Below, piece by piece: positions 12,681 to 47,092 of a stretch of DNA of 48,570 bases. The notes under the pieces were generated by a model. It saw only the letters and a list, made by a program, of their open reading frames with translations. It was not told the origin of the DNA and ran no database searches. A program made the translations under genes and the position numbers. Origin of the DNA: Balneolaceae bacterium (lineage in GTDB: Bacteria > Bacteroidota > Rhodothermia > Balneolales > Balneolaceae); contig VEMX01000001.1 of NCBI GenBank assembly GCA_009711805.1, positions 1-48,570 on the forward strand, given 5' to 3'. Position 1 is the stretch's first letter, and every line of letters begins with the position of its first letter.

Positions 12681-12914
12681 TTAACCCGGATTATTCACCA
12701 AGAAATTTAATCGTACGCAAGGCGAAGTGGAAATGGGAGGAAGGGTACTGTGGTACCCTGAGTACCCCAATTCTCACTTGAACGCAGCGTACGGGGAAAT
12801 TTCGTCGCCTAATCCGTACCTCAAAATTGGGCTATTACATAAAGCAATTCAACGGTAATATATTCAAGTATATAGATTGCCATTTTGCATCCATTCGTGA
12901 ATAATTCGGGTTAA
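12681..12914. mobile_element. TTAA-flanked MITE, full-length copy 1
   Basis: This 234-bp element starts and ends with TTAA and has terminal inverted repeats of about 18 bp: CCCGGATTATTCACCAAG, with the other end reading CCCGAATTATTCACGAAT inverted. The centre folds back on itself (CGTACGC … GCGTACG around GGGTAC-TGTG-GTACCC). It has no coding capacity. It is over 90% identical to the copy at 46769–47004, and an internally deleted copy lies at 32319–32386. The transposase that moved it is not in the window; TTAA targets recall piggyBac and possibly its bacterial IS1380 relatives. Confidence 0.85.
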
Positions 12915-31661: not shown

Positions 31662-32015
31662 TCAGCTATTCTTCAGTTTCTTTTTCTTTTTAACCGGTAA
31701 TTTTTCCACAATCAGATCATAAGAATGCCGAATGAGTTCAATAATAAAATCATCTTCCAGGGAACCATTGGGAACTACCGTATTCCAGTGTTTCTTGTTC
31801 ATATGATAACCGGGTTTAATTTCCTCATATGCCGCTCTCAGTTTCAACGCACGCACTGGATCACATTTCAGGTTGATGCCATCAAAAGTCTCTACATTGG
31901 TTAAGGCAAACATTTTACCCATAACTTTAAACACCAATACATCTTCGTTAAATGGGAATTCCTCAGTTACTCCCGGCAGCGACATACAATAGTTGTAATA
32001 AGTTTCAATATTCAT
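31662..32015 (-). CDS. MmcQ/YjbR family DNA-binding protein
   Basis: The 117-residue protein matches the MmcQ/YjbR (CyaY-like fold) family, with 'CMSLPGVTEEFPFNEDVLVFKV' as its opening (read at 10–31), 'GKMFAL', and 'HMNKKHWNTV' as the hallmark. It is often annotated as DNA-binding; the actual role is unclear. Its ATG overlaps the stop codon of the broken upstream gene (ATGA), which supports that gene's original end. Confidence 0.9.
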   Translation of the reverse strand: MNIETYYNYCMSLPGVTEEFPFNEDVLVFKVMGKMFALTNVETFDGINLKCDPVRALKLRAAYEEIKPGYHMNKKHWNTVVPNGSLEDDFIIELIRHSYDLIVEKLPVKKKKKLKNS

Positions 32016-32576
32016 TGATGTGCTCGTTGAAAGTCATTTTTAAATTGATCTACCAGCCCCAGTGCACCTTCGGCTATAAAGTTGGTGCAGTTTTTTGTTA
32101 TAGCGCCAACAATACTGCTATGCCAGGTAGCAGCGGAAGTGCCTGCTTTAGTCCCCAACATGAGTTGAACGGGTTGGTAGAACTGCAGTTCGGCCGTATA
32201 GGGGTAGAAACCAGGCTCAGCATACATAATGTTGATATGAAGATGCAGAATAGGAAACCGATCCGATTGGCGAAGGGTTTCATCTTTTAGTAAGGTAACC
32301 GGAAGATCTTCAAGTTCTTTAACCCGGATTATTCACCAAGTATATAGATCGCCATTTTGTATCCATTCGTGAATAATTCGGGTTAAGCATTTGAGCCTTT
32401 ACTTCAGCAGGGCTGATATCCAATTTGGTATCGCCAATGGGCTGTTCCACATTTACAACTACTCCGAATTCGAGAAGTCCATTTAAAGATTCACGTTGAC
32501 GGAGCACTTCATTTTGGGCGTTGGCTACAGAAGCTGAAATAAAAAGGGCGGCGAAGAATAGAAATAGAGTTTTCAT
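32012..32576 (-). pseudogene. Small exported protein disrupted by a 68-bp MITE
   Basis: The N-terminal part starts with a clear signal peptide ('MKTLFLFFAALFISASVANA') and runs to 'AEVKAQML', where the element at 32319–32386 begins. Past the element the same frame resumes ('LKELEDLPVTLLKDETLRQS' and onward) and ends 'NDFQRAHQ' at 32012. Removing the element plus one TTAA leaves 501 nt, exactly 166 codons plus stop, in frame. The original gene was therefore intact until the insertion. I do not recognise the family. As it stands, translation stops inside the element shortly after the insertion point. Confidence 0.85.
32319..32386. mobile_element. TTAA-flanked MITE, internally deleted 68-bp copy
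   Basis: The two ends match those of the full copies (12681–12914 and 46769–47004), but about 168 internal bp are missing. The deletion joins at a CAAG microhomology shared by the left inner end ('CACCAAG') and the sequence before 'TATATAG' on the right. It is bounded by TTAA on both sides and lies in a coding sequence. Confidence 0.9.
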
Positions 32577-32625: not shown

Positions 32626-32907
32626 CTATTCTTCTACCTTTATTCCTTTCCAGAACGCAACATGATTCTTGATTTCGGAGGCAGCTTCTTTGGGTTCAGG
32701 ATAATACCAGGCTGCATTGGGGTTGGTGTTTCCATCTACTTCAACCGTATAATAACTGGCCTCTCCTTTCCAGGGGCAGGTGGTATGGTGATCTGAATTC
32801 TTAAAATATTTTTTATTAACTGATTCAGGGGGGAAGTAATGGTTATTCTCGATTACAACGGTGTCATCACTTTCGGCTAATATTTCTTCATTCCATATCG
32901 CTTTCAT
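32626..32907 (-). CDS. DUF427 domain-containing protein
   Basis: The 93-residue protein has the DUF427 pattern: 'AIWNEEILAESDDTVVIENNHYFP', 'TTCPWKGEASYY' and 'AAWYYPEP'. DUF427 proteins are small and of unknown function, widespread in bacteria. It is 4 bp downstream of the DUF423 gene on the same strand and probably cotranscribed with it. Confidence 0.9.
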   Translation of the reverse strand: MKAIWNEEILAESDDTVVIENNHYFPPESVNKKYFKNSDHHTTCPWKGEASYYTVEVDGNTNPNAAWYYPEPKEAASEIKNHVAFWKGIKVEE

Positions 32908-32911
32908 ACTA

Positions 32912-33289
32912 TCAGGGTTTTAATTTTAATAATTGAACTCCAAGCAAGATCCACCCGGCAATTAAAGCCACGCCACCAATGGGCGTAATGGCCCCAAACC
33001 AGCCTATACCCGACAAACAGAGTACATACAGGCTTCCCGAGAAAATCAATATGCCGGCAAAAAGTAAATGAGCTGGCCATCTTAAATCAATTTGAAAATG
33101 GGCGGATATAAGCCCAATCAGAATTAGCCCCAGAGCATGCCAGGCATGGTAGCGTACGGCGGTTTCCCAGGTTTCAAGACGCTCAGGGGTAAGTATATTT
33201 TTTAAGCCATGTGCACCAAAAGCACCGGCGGCGACTGCTATTGCCAATAGAAATGAGGCAATAACTATAATAATTTTCGGATTGGTCAT
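32912..33289 (-). CDS. DUF423 domain-containing membrane protein
   Basis: The 125-residue protein has four hydrophobic helices and the DUF423 motifs 'GAFGAHGLK' (about 22–30) and 'ITPIGGVALIAGW' near the C-terminus, as in YgdD/YwdK-type inner-membrane proteins of unknown function. First gene of a short minus-strand run with DUF427. Confidence 0.9.
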   Translation of the reverse strand: MTNPKIIIVIASFLLAIAVAAGAFGAHGLKNILTPERLETWETAVRYHAWHALGLILIGLISAHFQIDLRWPAHLLFAGILIFSGSLYVLCLSGIGWFGAITPIGGVALIAGWILLGVQLLKLKP

Positions 33290-42472: not shown

Positions 42473-44473
42473 ATGAGTCAATCCAATTACTATATTTACT
42501 ATCTATGTACCAGGATTATACAAAGTGTTGTATTTCTTTTTTTGATATCTACAACTTTTGTAAATGCACAAGACCGAGATTTGAAAAGCCGGCCAGGAAC
42601 CGATTTTGTAAAACAACATATTCTGGATACAAAATCACTGTCAAATAAAACCCAGAGTCATGCCCGGTACCTGAAAGAAGTATCCATACACAAAAAAGCA
42701 CATATAGTCCGCCTGCCTGAACATTTGTATGAAGAGGAAAAACTAATTCTGCATGTTCAGCAGAAGAAAGACGGACTCAGGTTTAATCCCGGAAAAGGAG
42801 GAGAAACCATTGAAATTGTGCAAACACAGATTAAAATCATGTCCGATACCGTGTACTCCTGGAAAGGAGATGTTTATTTTCCAGACCGGGAAGAACCGGT
42901 TGGGGATGCTTTGTTTGTCCAGGATCATGAGGGACGAATAACAGGTACGATTGATATTGACGGAGAATTTTTTAGGATATTAAGCCTGAGAAACTCCAAA
43001 TTACACACGCTCATTGAGTTTGATAAAGAAGAACTAAGAAAACGCGGGCGTGCCGCTGCATCACAGGAGATTGATCCCAGGAAGAATATTTCTGCCCCTT
43101 CCGGAGCCAAAGAACAGCAAAAGAAGAAAACCCCACCAGAACCCCAAAAATCAGACACTGAACAACTTCCTGAAATGGTGGCCGTTTCCCCGGCCGGTGA
43201 TGCCCCTGACTGCAACACCGATTATATACGGGTGCTGGCACTGTATACACCCGCTGCTAAAAACTATGGCAACATGAGCGGTATCATTTCCTCTTCCATT
43301 GCAGAAATAAACGATGCCCACGATAACAGTCAAGCTTATTTTGTGGAAACAGAATTGGTGCACCAACAGGAGTTAAATTTCAACAATACCGGAAATATTG
43401 AAAATGATATAGAAAATTTAATTGCCAATGGTTCAGCTCAATCTTTAAGGGATCAATATGATGCCGATGTTGTTATACTTCTTACCGGTTATAACAGCTA
43501 TTACCCTGTTTCAGGTATTGCCGGCACACTTCACTTAGACTCAAATAAAATGTATGCCATTGTGGATGTGGGTTATGCTACAGCTCCCGAATATAGTTTT
43601 GCTCATGAGTTCTCACATTTACAGGCCGCCCAGCACCATCCTAATGACGCCACCACATCCGGCGTGTATAGCTATGGATATGGGCACCGCACCAGTGACC
43701 GTGCAACTATTATGGCTTATACCTGGGTTCCCGGATCAAATCAATCGTGGCCGAGAATAAAATATTACTCCAATCCCAATAAGTCTTATTCTGGAGAAGC
43801 CCTGGGCATAGCTAATCAGCGGGAAAATTACCGGGTGCTTAAAAACACCGCACCTACGGTATCCAACTTTCGCAATCCCAATGAACTGAAGGTTTCTACC
43901 ACAGTACAGGAATCTTCCGGGGATTATACCTTCACCGCCCAGCCTTGCGGCGGCACGGGCAGTTACTCCTACAAATGGTGGGCCAGTCCCACTCCCGGCG
44001 GATATAACCACCCGGTTGAATCTACCTCTTCTACTTTTTCTCCCACCCTCACCTATGGCGCCTGGTATATAAAAGTGAATATAACCTCGGGAGGAGAATC
44101 GATCGATGAATATATGAGTGTATGGGTGGATGAATGCGACCCGCAGGATCCCATGTGCCAGCAAAAACAGGTTACGATTACAGAAGGGGACCCGGGTGCT
44201 GAAAAACCGGAGGCCTTTGAATTGCTCCCGGCCTATCCCAATCCGTTTAACCCGGCAACCCGGCTGTCCTTTACCCTCCCGGAAAGCCAGCATGTAAAAG
44301 CGGCGGTCTACGATATGGCAGGAAGAGAAGTGACCGTACTGGCCAACCAGCCCTTTAAGGCCGGCGCTCATACGCTGCGCTTTGACGCCGCCGGGCTTTC
44401 CAGCGGAAACTATATGGTGCGCCTGCAGGCAGGTAAACAACTACAAACACAAACCATTACTTTAATTAAGTGA
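42473..44473 (+). CDS. Secreted metzincin zinc metalloprotease with T9SS type A sorting domain
   Basis: The 666-residue protein has a signal peptide ending near 'NAQ' (about 33), a propeptide-like region (to about 240) and a reprolysin-like domain (about 248–465). The zinc motif is HEFSHLQAAQH (378–388), i.e. HExxHxxxxxH with Ala where Gly is usual. The Met-turn is 'IMAYT' (Met414). An Ig-like region (about 475–555) and a C-terminal sorting domain (about 585–666, 'PAYPNPFNPATRLSF', 'VYDMAGREV') follow. It should be exported by the type 9 system and cleave proteins outside the cell. The FNPxT sorting form is typical of Balneolota and relatives. Confidence 0.9.
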   Translation: MSQSNYYIYYLCTRIIQSVVFLFLISTTFVNAQDRDLKSRPGTDFVKQHILDTKSLSNKTQSHARYLKEVSIHKKAHIVRLPEHLYEEEKLILHVQQKKDGLRFNPGKGGETIEIVQTQIKIMSDTVYSWKGDVYFPDREEPVGDALFVQDHEGRITGTIDIDGEFFRILSLRNSKLHTLIEFDKEELRKRGRAAASQEIDPRKNISAPSGAKEQQKKKTPPEPQKSDTEQLPEMVAVSPAGDAPDCNTDYIRVLALYTPAAKNYGNMSGIISSSIAEINDAHDNSQAYFVETELVHQQELNFNNTGNIENDIENLIANGSAQSLRDQYDADVVILLTGYNSYYPVSGIAGTLHLDSNKMYAIVDVGYATAPEYSFAHEFSHLQAAQHHPNDATTSGVYSYGYGHRTSDRATIMAYTWVPGSNQSWPRIKYYSNPNKSYSGEALGIANQRENYRVLKNTAPTVSNFRNPNELKVSTTVQESSGDYTFTAQPCGGTGSYSYKWWASPTPGGYNHPVESTSSTFSPTLTYGAWYIKVNITSGGESIDEYMSVWVDECDPQDPMCQQKQVTITEGDPGAEKPEAFELLPAYPNPFNPATRLSFTLPESQHVKAAVYDMAGREVTVLANQPFKAGAHTLRFDAAGLSSGNYMVRLQAGKQLQTQTITLIK

Positions 44474-44490
44474 TTGCAATCTATATTTTT

Positions 44491-44524
44491 CTGGCAGCCG
44501 GCACCGGCTGCCAGAATCTTTTTA
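44491..44524 (+). terminator. Intrinsic terminator after the metalloprotease
   Basis: CTGGCAGCCG-GCAC-CGGCTGCCAG is a perfect 10-bp stem with a 4-nt loop, followed by AATCTTTTTAT. Only its 3' half is repeated before the second and third lipoprotein genes, so those junctions cannot form it. Confidence 0.75.
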
Positions 44525-44538
44525 TAAAAAACAGAATT

Positions 44539-45156
44539 ATGCGAAACATACCATTTACCGTTATCATTATTTTCATACTGGCCGGCTGCAGCCTGTTTTC
44601 GGCCGACAAAAAAGAACCAGAAGATCCCTTTGAGGCCGTATTTACCGCTGAAATTAATGGAGCCCCCTTTGATGGGAGTCCGTTCAAAGAATATGCACAA
44701 GTAATAATGACTACCCAGGGAGAGTACTCACCCCAGGGAGAGTACTCATTTTTAACTATATACGCCTCTCAATTTAACGAACAACTTTCTCCTTACCATG
44801 AAAAAATAAGCATCAATCTGCTGTATGAGGAAGGCAGACAAAAGTATAAAACACGGGTAGATTCTGTTATGTATGACGAAGAGAATTACATGACAGATGG
44901 AGGAAGCTATTATGAAAAAGACGGGGATGTTACAATCTCCACTTATAAAGCCTTTGAAGACGAAGAAGGCTTTGTTACGGTCGAAATGGAAGAGCAGGAT
45001 AACGGGGAAACCGTGGTTTCTGGAACCTTTGAAATGCGGGTCATTGTAGATTACCGGGATGATCCATACAGCCAACGGGCAGACCAGGACACCTTATATA
45101 TCACCAACGGAGAATACCGCCTATTACTGGATGACCGGCGGGATGGACAGGAGTGA
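44539..45156 (+). CDS. Tandem lipoprotein paralogue 1
   Basis: This 205-residue lipoprotein has a short signal ending 'ILAGC' (Cys17). I start at the ATG at 44539, since all three paralogues then have a 17-residue signal to the Cys. 'AVFTAEINGAPFDG' follows, which recalls small Bacteroidota lipoproteins of the DUF6252 kind, but I am unsure. A beta-rich middle and a C-terminal half ending 'TNGEYRLLLDDRRDG' come next. An 18-bp tandem repeat within it encodes Q-G-E-Y-S-P twice (about 44717–44750). The C-terminal 336 bp are almost identical to paralogue 3. Function unknown. Confidence 0.8.
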   Translation: MRNIPFTVIIIFILAGCSLFSADKKEPEDPFEAVFTAEINGAPFDGSPFKEYAQVIMTTQGEYSPQGEYSFLTIYASQFNEQLSPYHEKISINLLYEEGRQKYKTRVDSVMYDEENYMTDGGSYYEKDGDVTISTYKAFEDEEGFVTVEMEEQDNGETVVSGTFEMRVIVDYRDDPYSQRADQDTLYITNGEYRLLLDDRRDGQE

Positions 45157-45203
45157 CCGGCTGTCAGATTTACCTAACCAACCATCCATTTATGAATCCT
45201 TTT

Positions 45204-45815
45204 ATGAAAAGAACATTAACTGCCATGGCTATTGCTCTTACCTTGCTTGGCTGCAGCCTGTTTTCGGCCGAAGATCAAGAACCGGAAGACCCTTTTGAAC
45301 CGGTATTTACCGCCCAAATTAATGGGAAGCCTTTTGAAGGAAGCAGCTTTAGAGGACGAGCGGGGGCAATAGCAATAATAAGTACCCGGGGAGCAAACAC
45401 CCACTTAACCATAACGGGAACTGAATGGAGTGAAAAACTCTTTCCTTATAATGGCGATATATCTATTTCTATGTTATATGAGAACGGCAAACAAAAATAT
45501 AGCACACAAACAGACTACTTTACAGATATTGACGGTCACCCCAAAAGCATAGGCGGTACCTATTATGAAAATGACGGAGATGCGCGTATTTCTGTCTATG
45601 AAGCCTATAACGATGACGAAGGGTTTATTACCGTGCATGTGGAAGAGCAGGACGATGGGCGCACCGTGGTTTCTGGAACCTTTGAAATGCGGCTCATTGT
45701 AGATTCCCGGGCAGATCCATACAGCCAATGGGCAGACCAGGACACCTTATATATCACCAACGGAGAATATCGCGTATCGCTCTTTGACTATGACCAGTGG
45801 AATGGACAGGAGTGA
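45204..45815 (+). CDS. Tandem lipoprotein paralogue 2
   Basis: The 203-residue lipoprotein has a signal ending 'LLGC' (Cys17 from the ATG at 45204; an in-frame ATG at 45192 is possible). It is the most diverged of the three, with 'PVFTAQINGKPFEGSSF' and a different middle, but its end ('EMRLIVDSRADPYSQWADQD') is close to the others at DNA level. The gene starts 48 bp after paralogue 1 stops. Function unknown. Confidence 0.8.
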   Translation: MKRTLTAMAIALTLLGCSLFSAEDQEPEDPFEPVFTAQINGKPFEGSSFRGRAGAIAIISTRGANTHLTITGTEWSEKLFPYNGDISISMLYENGKQKYSTQTDYFTDIDGHPKSIGGTYYENDGDARISVYEAYNDDEGFITVHVEEQDDGRTVVSGTFEMRLIVDSRADPYSQWADQDTLYITNGEYRVSLFDYDQWNGQE

Positions 45816-45850
45816 CAGGCTGCCAGAATCTTTTTATAAAAAACAGAATT

Positions 45851-46444
45851 ATGCGAAACATACCATTTACCGTTATCACTATTTTCATACTGGCTGGCTG
45901 CAACTTGTTCTCACCAAAAGAACAAGAGAAATCCTTTGAGCCAACATTTACCGCCGAAATTAATGGGGAACCTTTTGATGGGAGTCTGTTTGAAGGCTTT
46001 GCAAGAGCAGTAATAAGCACCCAGGGAGAACACCATCTTTTATCTATACGTGGAGTGGAGTTTAGTGAAGAACTTCCCTCCTACAACGAAATAATGGGTG
46101 TCTCTGTGCTGTATGAGGAAGGCAGACAAAAGTATAAAACACGGGTAGATTCTGTTATGTATGACGAAGAGAATTACATGACAGATGGAGGAAGCTATTA
46201 TGAAAAAGACGGGGATGTTACAATCTCCACTTATAAAGCCTTTGAAGACGAAGAAGGCTTTGTTACGGTCGAAATGGAAGAGCAGGATAACGGGGAAACT
46301 GTGGTTTCTGGAACCTTTGAGATGCGGGTCATTGTAGATTACCGGGATGATCCATACAGCCAACGGGCAGACCAGGACACCTTATATATCACCAACGGAG
46401 AATACCGCCTATTACTGGATGACCGGCGGGATGGGCGGGAGTAA
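45851..46444 (+). CDS. Tandem lipoprotein paralogue 3
   Basis: The 197-residue lipoprotein has a signal ending 'ILAGC' (Cys17). Its upstream DNA and signal are almost identical to those of paralogue 1, the middle ('RAVISTQGEHHLLSIRGVEF') is clearly different, and the C-terminal 336 bp differ from paralogue 1 at only about five positions. It starts 35 bp after paralogue 2 stops. Function unknown; all three probably face the same compartment. Confidence 0.8.
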   Translation: MRNIPFTVITIFILAGCNLFSPKEQEKSFEPTFTAEINGEPFDGSLFEGFARAVISTQGEHHLLSIRGVEFSEELPSYNEIMGVSVLYEEGRQKYKTRVDSVMYDEENYMTDGGSYYEKDGDVTISTYKAFEDEEGFVTVEMEEQDNGETVVSGTFEMRVIVDYRDDPYSQRADQDTLYITNGEYRLLLDDRRDGRE

Positions 46445-47092
46445 CAGGTAATTTTGTTTTGGTCTTGTTATATCACAGACCTGATGTTTAGCCCAATCGG
46501 TGTGCTGAGCCACCTCCTTACCGGGTGGAGTTGAGGGACGTAGATAAGGCTGCAAGCTTGAGTTAAGGTTTAAAAAAAATCCCCCTGCCCCCTCATCCAT
46601 TCACTTCATCACTTCATCACTCACCCCAAAAAAACAACCAAAATACAATGCCCAAGGCATACTACGGCACATTAACTATGATGAGGGGGATATTTGTACC
46701 ACCAATTCATTACAAACATCCTGTCCATCACATCCATCACGGTTAAACCGGGAAAGAAGAAATACGTCTTAACCCGGATTATTCACCAAGTAATTTAATC
46801 GTACGCAAGGCGAAGTGGAAATGGGAACGGAAGGGTACTGTGGTACCCTGAGTATCCCAATTTTCACTTGAACGCAGCGTACGGGGAAATTTCGCCGCCT
46901 AATCCGTACCTTAAAATTGGGCTATTACATAAAGCAATTCACCGATAATATATTCAAGTATATAGATCGTCATTTTGCATCCATTCGTGAATAATTCGGG
47001 TTAATTTTTTCTCATCATCTACCCTTCACGGTCATCTCAAAAGGTGTGCCTGGGATTGTCGTAAGTGAATGATTATCGGTAAATGTGTAGTA
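46445..47092. other. Repeat-rich intergenic region
   Basis: No gene is supported. It holds a 'CACTTCATCACTTCATCACTC' simple repeat near 46602–46622, a decayed TGCCCAAGGCAT half-palindrome near 46649, and a full MITE (46769–47004). Confidence 0.6.
46769..47004. mobile_element. TTAA-flanked MITE, full-length copy 2
   Basis: This 236-bp copy is more than 90% identical to 12681–12914, with the same orientation, terminal inverted repeats and TTAA at both ends. The inner fold-back (CGTACGC … GCGTACG) is conserved. No coding capacity. Confidence 0.85.

Follow-up and report, generated by a model that had tools for sequence, protein, structure and literature searches.

A short, probably IS1380-type MITE at a duplicated TTAA interrupts a conserved gene for a predicted exported protein in a Balneolaceae genome

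Results

An interrupted gene and its intact homologues

The window (the whole stretch of DNA analysed, 48,570 nucleotides) carries on its reverse strand, in the direction of transcription, a DUF423 gene, a DUF427 (NTP_transf_9) gene, a gene broken into two parts and a YjbR-family gene (Table 1). The two parts of the broken gene are separated by a 60-bp element with inverted ends, flanked on both sides by TTAA. When 64 bp (the element and one TTAA) are removed, KAQML is joined to KELEDL (...KAQMLKELEDL...) and the flanks form 501 bp, that is, 166 codons and a stop in frame, exactly as a preliminary description of this DNA had claimed. The same description had the restored gene overlap the next one; indeed, its TGA (32012–32014) overlaps the YjbR start codon as ATGA. 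The 64 bp of added sequence bring a frameshift and a stop into the gene, leaving a truncated readable frame that runs from the gene into the element.

Table 1. Features of the locus and further copies of the element in the window
Feature	Coordinates	Strand	Remarks
YjbR-family gene	31662..32015	-	Downstream of broken gene, ATGA overlap; also neighbour in relatives
Broken gene, 3' part	32012..32318	-	Remainder of 166 codons and stop; aligns with C-terminal regions of homologues (best E 4e-33)
Truncated frame now readable	32319..32576	-	85 codons (63 gene, 22 element); stop is the TAA of TTAA
Target duplication TTAA, left copy	32319..32322	.	Gives truncated frame its stop codon
Inserted element	32323..32382	+	60 bp; internal-deletion derivative of 228-bp family
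Left terminal inverted repeat CCCGGATTATTCAC	32323..32336	+	14 bp
Right terminal inverted repeat CCCGAATTATTCAC	32369..32382	-	14 bp
Target duplication TTAA, right copy	32383..32386	.	
Broken gene, 5' part	32387..32576	-	63 codons, signal-peptide-like start; aligns with N-terminal regions of homologues (best E 3e-15)
DUF427 (NTP_transf_9) gene	32626..32907	-	Upstream of broken gene
DUF423 gene	32912..33289	-	Upstream; near broken gene's homologue in several relatives
Second copy of element	12685..12910	+	226 bp; TTAA both sides; outside genes
Third copy of element	46773..47000	+	228 bp, full-length; TTAA both sides; outside genes
Covarying hairpin core of full-length element	46790..46896	+	Conserved; missing from 60-bp copy

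The C-terminal part of the broken protein is encoded in 25 of 58 other genomes, in all 25 within an uninterrupted frame of 169–217 codons. The rejoined protein matched its homologues with a best E value of 2e-50. In several relatives, including Gracilimonas mengyeensis and G. amylolytica, a YjbR gene lies directly downstream and a DUF423 gene upstream, a shared arrangement that puts the window within or close to the Balneolaceae. The preliminary description had proposed looking in relatives for the uninterrupted protein and comparing its nucleotides at the junction, allowing that homologues might differ there or that the two halves might belong to different proteins. Such a protein was found, and the two halves align to successive stretches of the same homologues. 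In one homologue (L014, genome G003), the nucleotides ATGCTTAAAGA, translated MLKE, span the junction without interruption, in agreement with the rejoined gene. Because this homologue has ATGCTTAAAGAG at the position of ATGCTTAAAGAA in the rejoined gene of the source genome, a single, uninterrupted TTAA stands there. The nearest intact homologues are about 45–53% identical, with no close relative found in the collections searched, so the empty site is shown for the gene and its junction rather than for a sister strain.

No family in Pfam or NCBIfam covers the broken protein. The structure predicted for a homologue with pLDDT 88 loosely resembles periplasmic domains of the TolB N-terminal and PelC-like kinds, as well as LptE and CsgG-type domains, and, since these likenesses are loose (TM-score about 0.4), we claim no function for the protein. 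Nothing points to a toxin. The gene interrupted by the element is a conserved one, for a predicted exported protein.

The element belongs to a MITE family with a 4-bp target duplication

The preliminary description placed a 68-bp MITE in the gene. The MITE stands, but without its flanks it measures 60 bp, and it reaches 68 bp only when both copies of TTAA are counted; its inverted arms (21 nt each with TTAA counted) are 90% complementary. Across the whole genome (4.08 Mb, 99 contigs), about 90 copies were counted by their ends, against 0 for a reversed control pattern, which, together with the matching of both halves to the same homologues, argues that the arrangement at the locus is not due to chance. 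Counts are approximate because the element breaks the assembly: several contigs of the source assembly (G000) end within 228-bp copies (L073, L085, L090, L103 and L118). At 51 of 75 paired sites in the sequence stretches examined, the element is exactly 228 bp long, with 97.4–100% identity to the consensus. Related ends with other interiors were seen at L067 2459–2502 (44 bp) and L109 10–307 (298 bp), and the genome may hold more than one MITE family with such ends.

Identical 4-bp flanks border 62 of 69 well-delimited copies, the match extending over 5 bp in only 3. As TTAA on both sides could belong to the ends, most informative are the 20 copies with a left flank other than TTAA; in 15 of these the same word stands on the right (CTAA, TTAG, TTAC, GTAA, ATAA). 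Insertion thus does duplicate 4 bp of the target, and TTAA is the preferred word. The TTAA duplication asserted in the preliminary description is thus borne out, its proof coming from the family and not from the single site.

Coding frames are interrupted by 3 of the 75 copies and left uninterrupted by 72 (open-frame test). Besides the 60-bp copy, a 72-bp copy interrupts an EamA-type transporter gene (L127 917–988) and a 228-bp copy a DsrE-family gene (L078 1485–1712), further signs that the family is or was active. Two of the three genic copies are short, too weak a signal to be used for a preference of short copies for genes, an idea we dropped. With terminal inverted repeats, a target duplication, short, non-coding, near-identical copies and an empty site, the family has the features of MITEs. 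No Rfam family corresponded to the element, no match to it was found in the plasmids searched, and no match to its core pattern in the viral contigs searched. The literature searched gave no description of the element or of a conserved structured core between IS1380-type ends.

Elsewhere in the window, three consecutive, similar lipoprotein-like frames (FTAEINGxPFxGS...) lie at 44470–46444. The first and third are nearly identical over long stretches, which points to a recent tandem duplication.

The 60-bp copy lacks the hairpin core

When split at CAAG, the 60-bp copy matches the family consensus at 59 of 60 positions. CAAG borders the missing 168 bp on both sides, and these 168 bp include the hairpin core. 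The alignment marks the 60-bp copy as an internal-deletion derivative of the 228-bp element, not the family's normal form. A fairly recent insertion, as proposed in the preliminary description, is reasonable given this closeness to the consensus, the perfect duplication and the open frame in both halves. Other short copies (42, 44, 72, 84 and 105 bp) have differing junctions, mostly with 3–5 bp of microhomology, and all are without the hairpin core. Slippage across the hairpin would be the simplest cause of the 168-bp loss.

Compared with shuffled sequence, the full-length element has a much stronger fold (z -6.8). Related elements were found in 24 of 129 genomes of the order, spanning 11 genera and three families; they are mostly 226–228 bp long and have NTAN flanks and the same ends, with a sequence identity of only about 70%. 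In a comparison of 20 elements from the order's genomes, the proposed hairpin and end pairing was formed in 94.5% of cells, against 34–44% when slid. Double changes numbered 122 in these elements versus 38 in shuffles, counts that are inflated by relatedness, which the slid control retains. The inner fold appears to have been conserved through compensatory changes, seen in 20 genomes of the order and in three of its families. Alternatively, the covariation could come from the two arms correcting each other in replication, without selection on the fold.

The core occurs outside the order without IS1380 ends

Searching with a covariance model of the core brought up a single genome from another family of the class (55 bits), its copy adjoining what we take to be tuf, and, from a distant genus of the phylum, three genomes (29–39 bits). 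The hairpins of the distant genus are without IS1380 ends, and their outer stems vary by locus while remaining complementary at nearly every locus. A second covariance model, trained only on the hairpins of this distant genus, recovered the order's elements at 23–41 bits and also matched a Comamonas plasmid (109 bits) and, in Escherichia coli, an intergenic stretch that lies upstream of qseG (61 bits). Without IS1380 ends, the core is found at loci L231, L248–L276, L277 and L278, which lie in other Bacteroidota, on a Comamonas plasmid and in E. coli. The BoxC repeat was rejected as the identity of the E. coli hairpin, BoxC being a G/C-rich, 37-nt triplex motif (PMC4666352).

The Comamonas hairpin scores 40.9 bits against the Xanthomonas sRNA family sX9 (Rfam RF02228; gathering threshold 44), and hairpins from a second Bacteroidota genus reach 31–33 bits; the window's element gives no match to sX9. 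Like the element, the enterobacterial ERIC repeat is a single long imperfect hairpin with many intergenic copies (copy numbers and intergenic habit are reviewed in PMC10969869), and similar words are similarly placed in the two (AAGGCG, GGAG-TAC-loop-GTA-GTGA, ACGCAG). Unlike the element, ERIC lacks the ends and the TTAA duplication. Its scores are weak, though aligned end to end (12.7 and 15.5 bits against the free-standing-hairpin model in a 1.3-kb search, 12 bits against the order's model), and ERIC may be regarded as a lead, not as a member.

IS1380 elements of related genomes share the ends

The ends of the element start with CC(C/T) and match the ends of IS1380 insertion sequences of related genomes at 13–14 of 14 bases; like those sequences and their derived MITEs, the element has a 4-bp NTAN duplication (mostly TTAA), and it is non-coding. 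Unlike in IS1380 and its derivatives, the interior is a conserved hairpin with no shortened transposase gene, and the assembly holds no autonomous partner. Of 117 genomes of the group, 9 have IS1380 transposase genes that pass the family cut-off. One IS1380 element (G014) is 1702 bp long, has the ends CCTGCATTTCTCAC and is bordered by CTAG on each side, and a sister MITE in another genome (G067, L230) has ends identical to it over 14 of 14 bases. A truncated IS1380 element (G090) has ends CCCGGATTATTCAT, 13 of 14 as in the 60-bp element. Because the ends agree within both pairs (G014 with G067, G090 with the source genome), two end variants are common to IS1380 elements and MITEs.

The 99-contig source assembly is a draft, interrupted at repeats, and yielded no IS1380 transposase above cut-off (NF033539, PF13701). 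The two weak hits to these profiles, the transposase-like genes C66 and C50, were rejected as partners; they fall below the cut-offs, are without the element's ends and are presumably IS4-like. An IS1380 partner in the same genome is usual but not required, as the partner can be lost. IS1380-type mobilisation is likely on the match of the ends, and is offered as the best inference and not as a demonstration, since no IS1380 transposase reaches the cut-off in the source genome.

Discussion

We propose that an IS1380-type non-autonomous element inserted at a TTAA inside a conserved exported-protein gene and duplicated the TTAA, a reading to which we give a probability of roughly 0.9. An IS1380-family transposase, to judge from the matching ends, would have moved the element into the TTAA within the gene, leaving the TTAA duplicated; slippage across the hairpin would have removed 168 bp either before or after this step. 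The gene product would be lost, and the downstream YjbR gene, if translationally coupled, may be affected. That the mover was a transposase from outside the IS1380 family seems improbable. The source assembly is indeed without an IS1380 transposase above cut-off, and short A+T-rich sites are targeted by several DDE families; against this, within the order the end variants CCCGGATTATTCA and CCTGCATTTCTCAC are each shared by IS1380 elements and MITEs, and the IS1380 element of G014 is flanked by a 4-bp NTAN duplication, just as the MITEs are. Less likely still is that the two frames are separate small genes or a programmed fusion for which the element is normal at the locus. The 5' frame does run on for 85 codons, closing at the far edge of the element, and a few bacterial palindromic elements are known to add peptides to proteins (PMC10969869); yet every one of the 25 genomes with a match has a single uninterrupted frame, and the 64 bp shift and stop the frame here, on which grounds we discarded this alternative.

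Within the IS1380-type reading, the 60-bp form may have inserted as such, which would make deletion derivatives mobile, or a 228-bp copy may have shrunk in place. Insertion of the short form is a real possibility, to which we give slightly less than an even chance. The 60-bp copy retains both ends, which a transposase needs, and 84-bp copies stand at six sites that differ in their flanks. These 84-bp copies, however, have at least two junctions (AATT, AAG) and hence are not one amplified unit, and a second 60-bp copy was not found in the genome. Moreover, short direct repeats around a strong hairpin, as found at the junctions, are the textbook situation for in-place slippage.

The TTAA target recalls that of the piggyBac transposons, which are eukaryotic; IS1380 is the outgroup in piggyBac trees (PMC10813416).

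For annotation, both frames at 32012–32576 should be treated as one pseudogene. The disruption is a clean natural case of MITE insertion in which the empty site can be recognised. Genes interrupted by MITEs are commonplace; the unusual part is the structured core between IS1380-type ends. We tentatively suggest, at somewhat less than even confidence, that this core is one member of an old family of structured hairpins, mobile or mobilisable, that crosses phyla and may include ERIC and sX9, and that in this order the core was captured between IS1380 ends and kept, with compensatory changes, as MITE cargo. If so, the fold would be under selection, for example as RNA or as DNA that aids the element's copying. 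If the cross-phylum link holds, the long-unexplained ERIC-type repeats would gain a relative with visible transposon ends and, with it, a testable route of movement.
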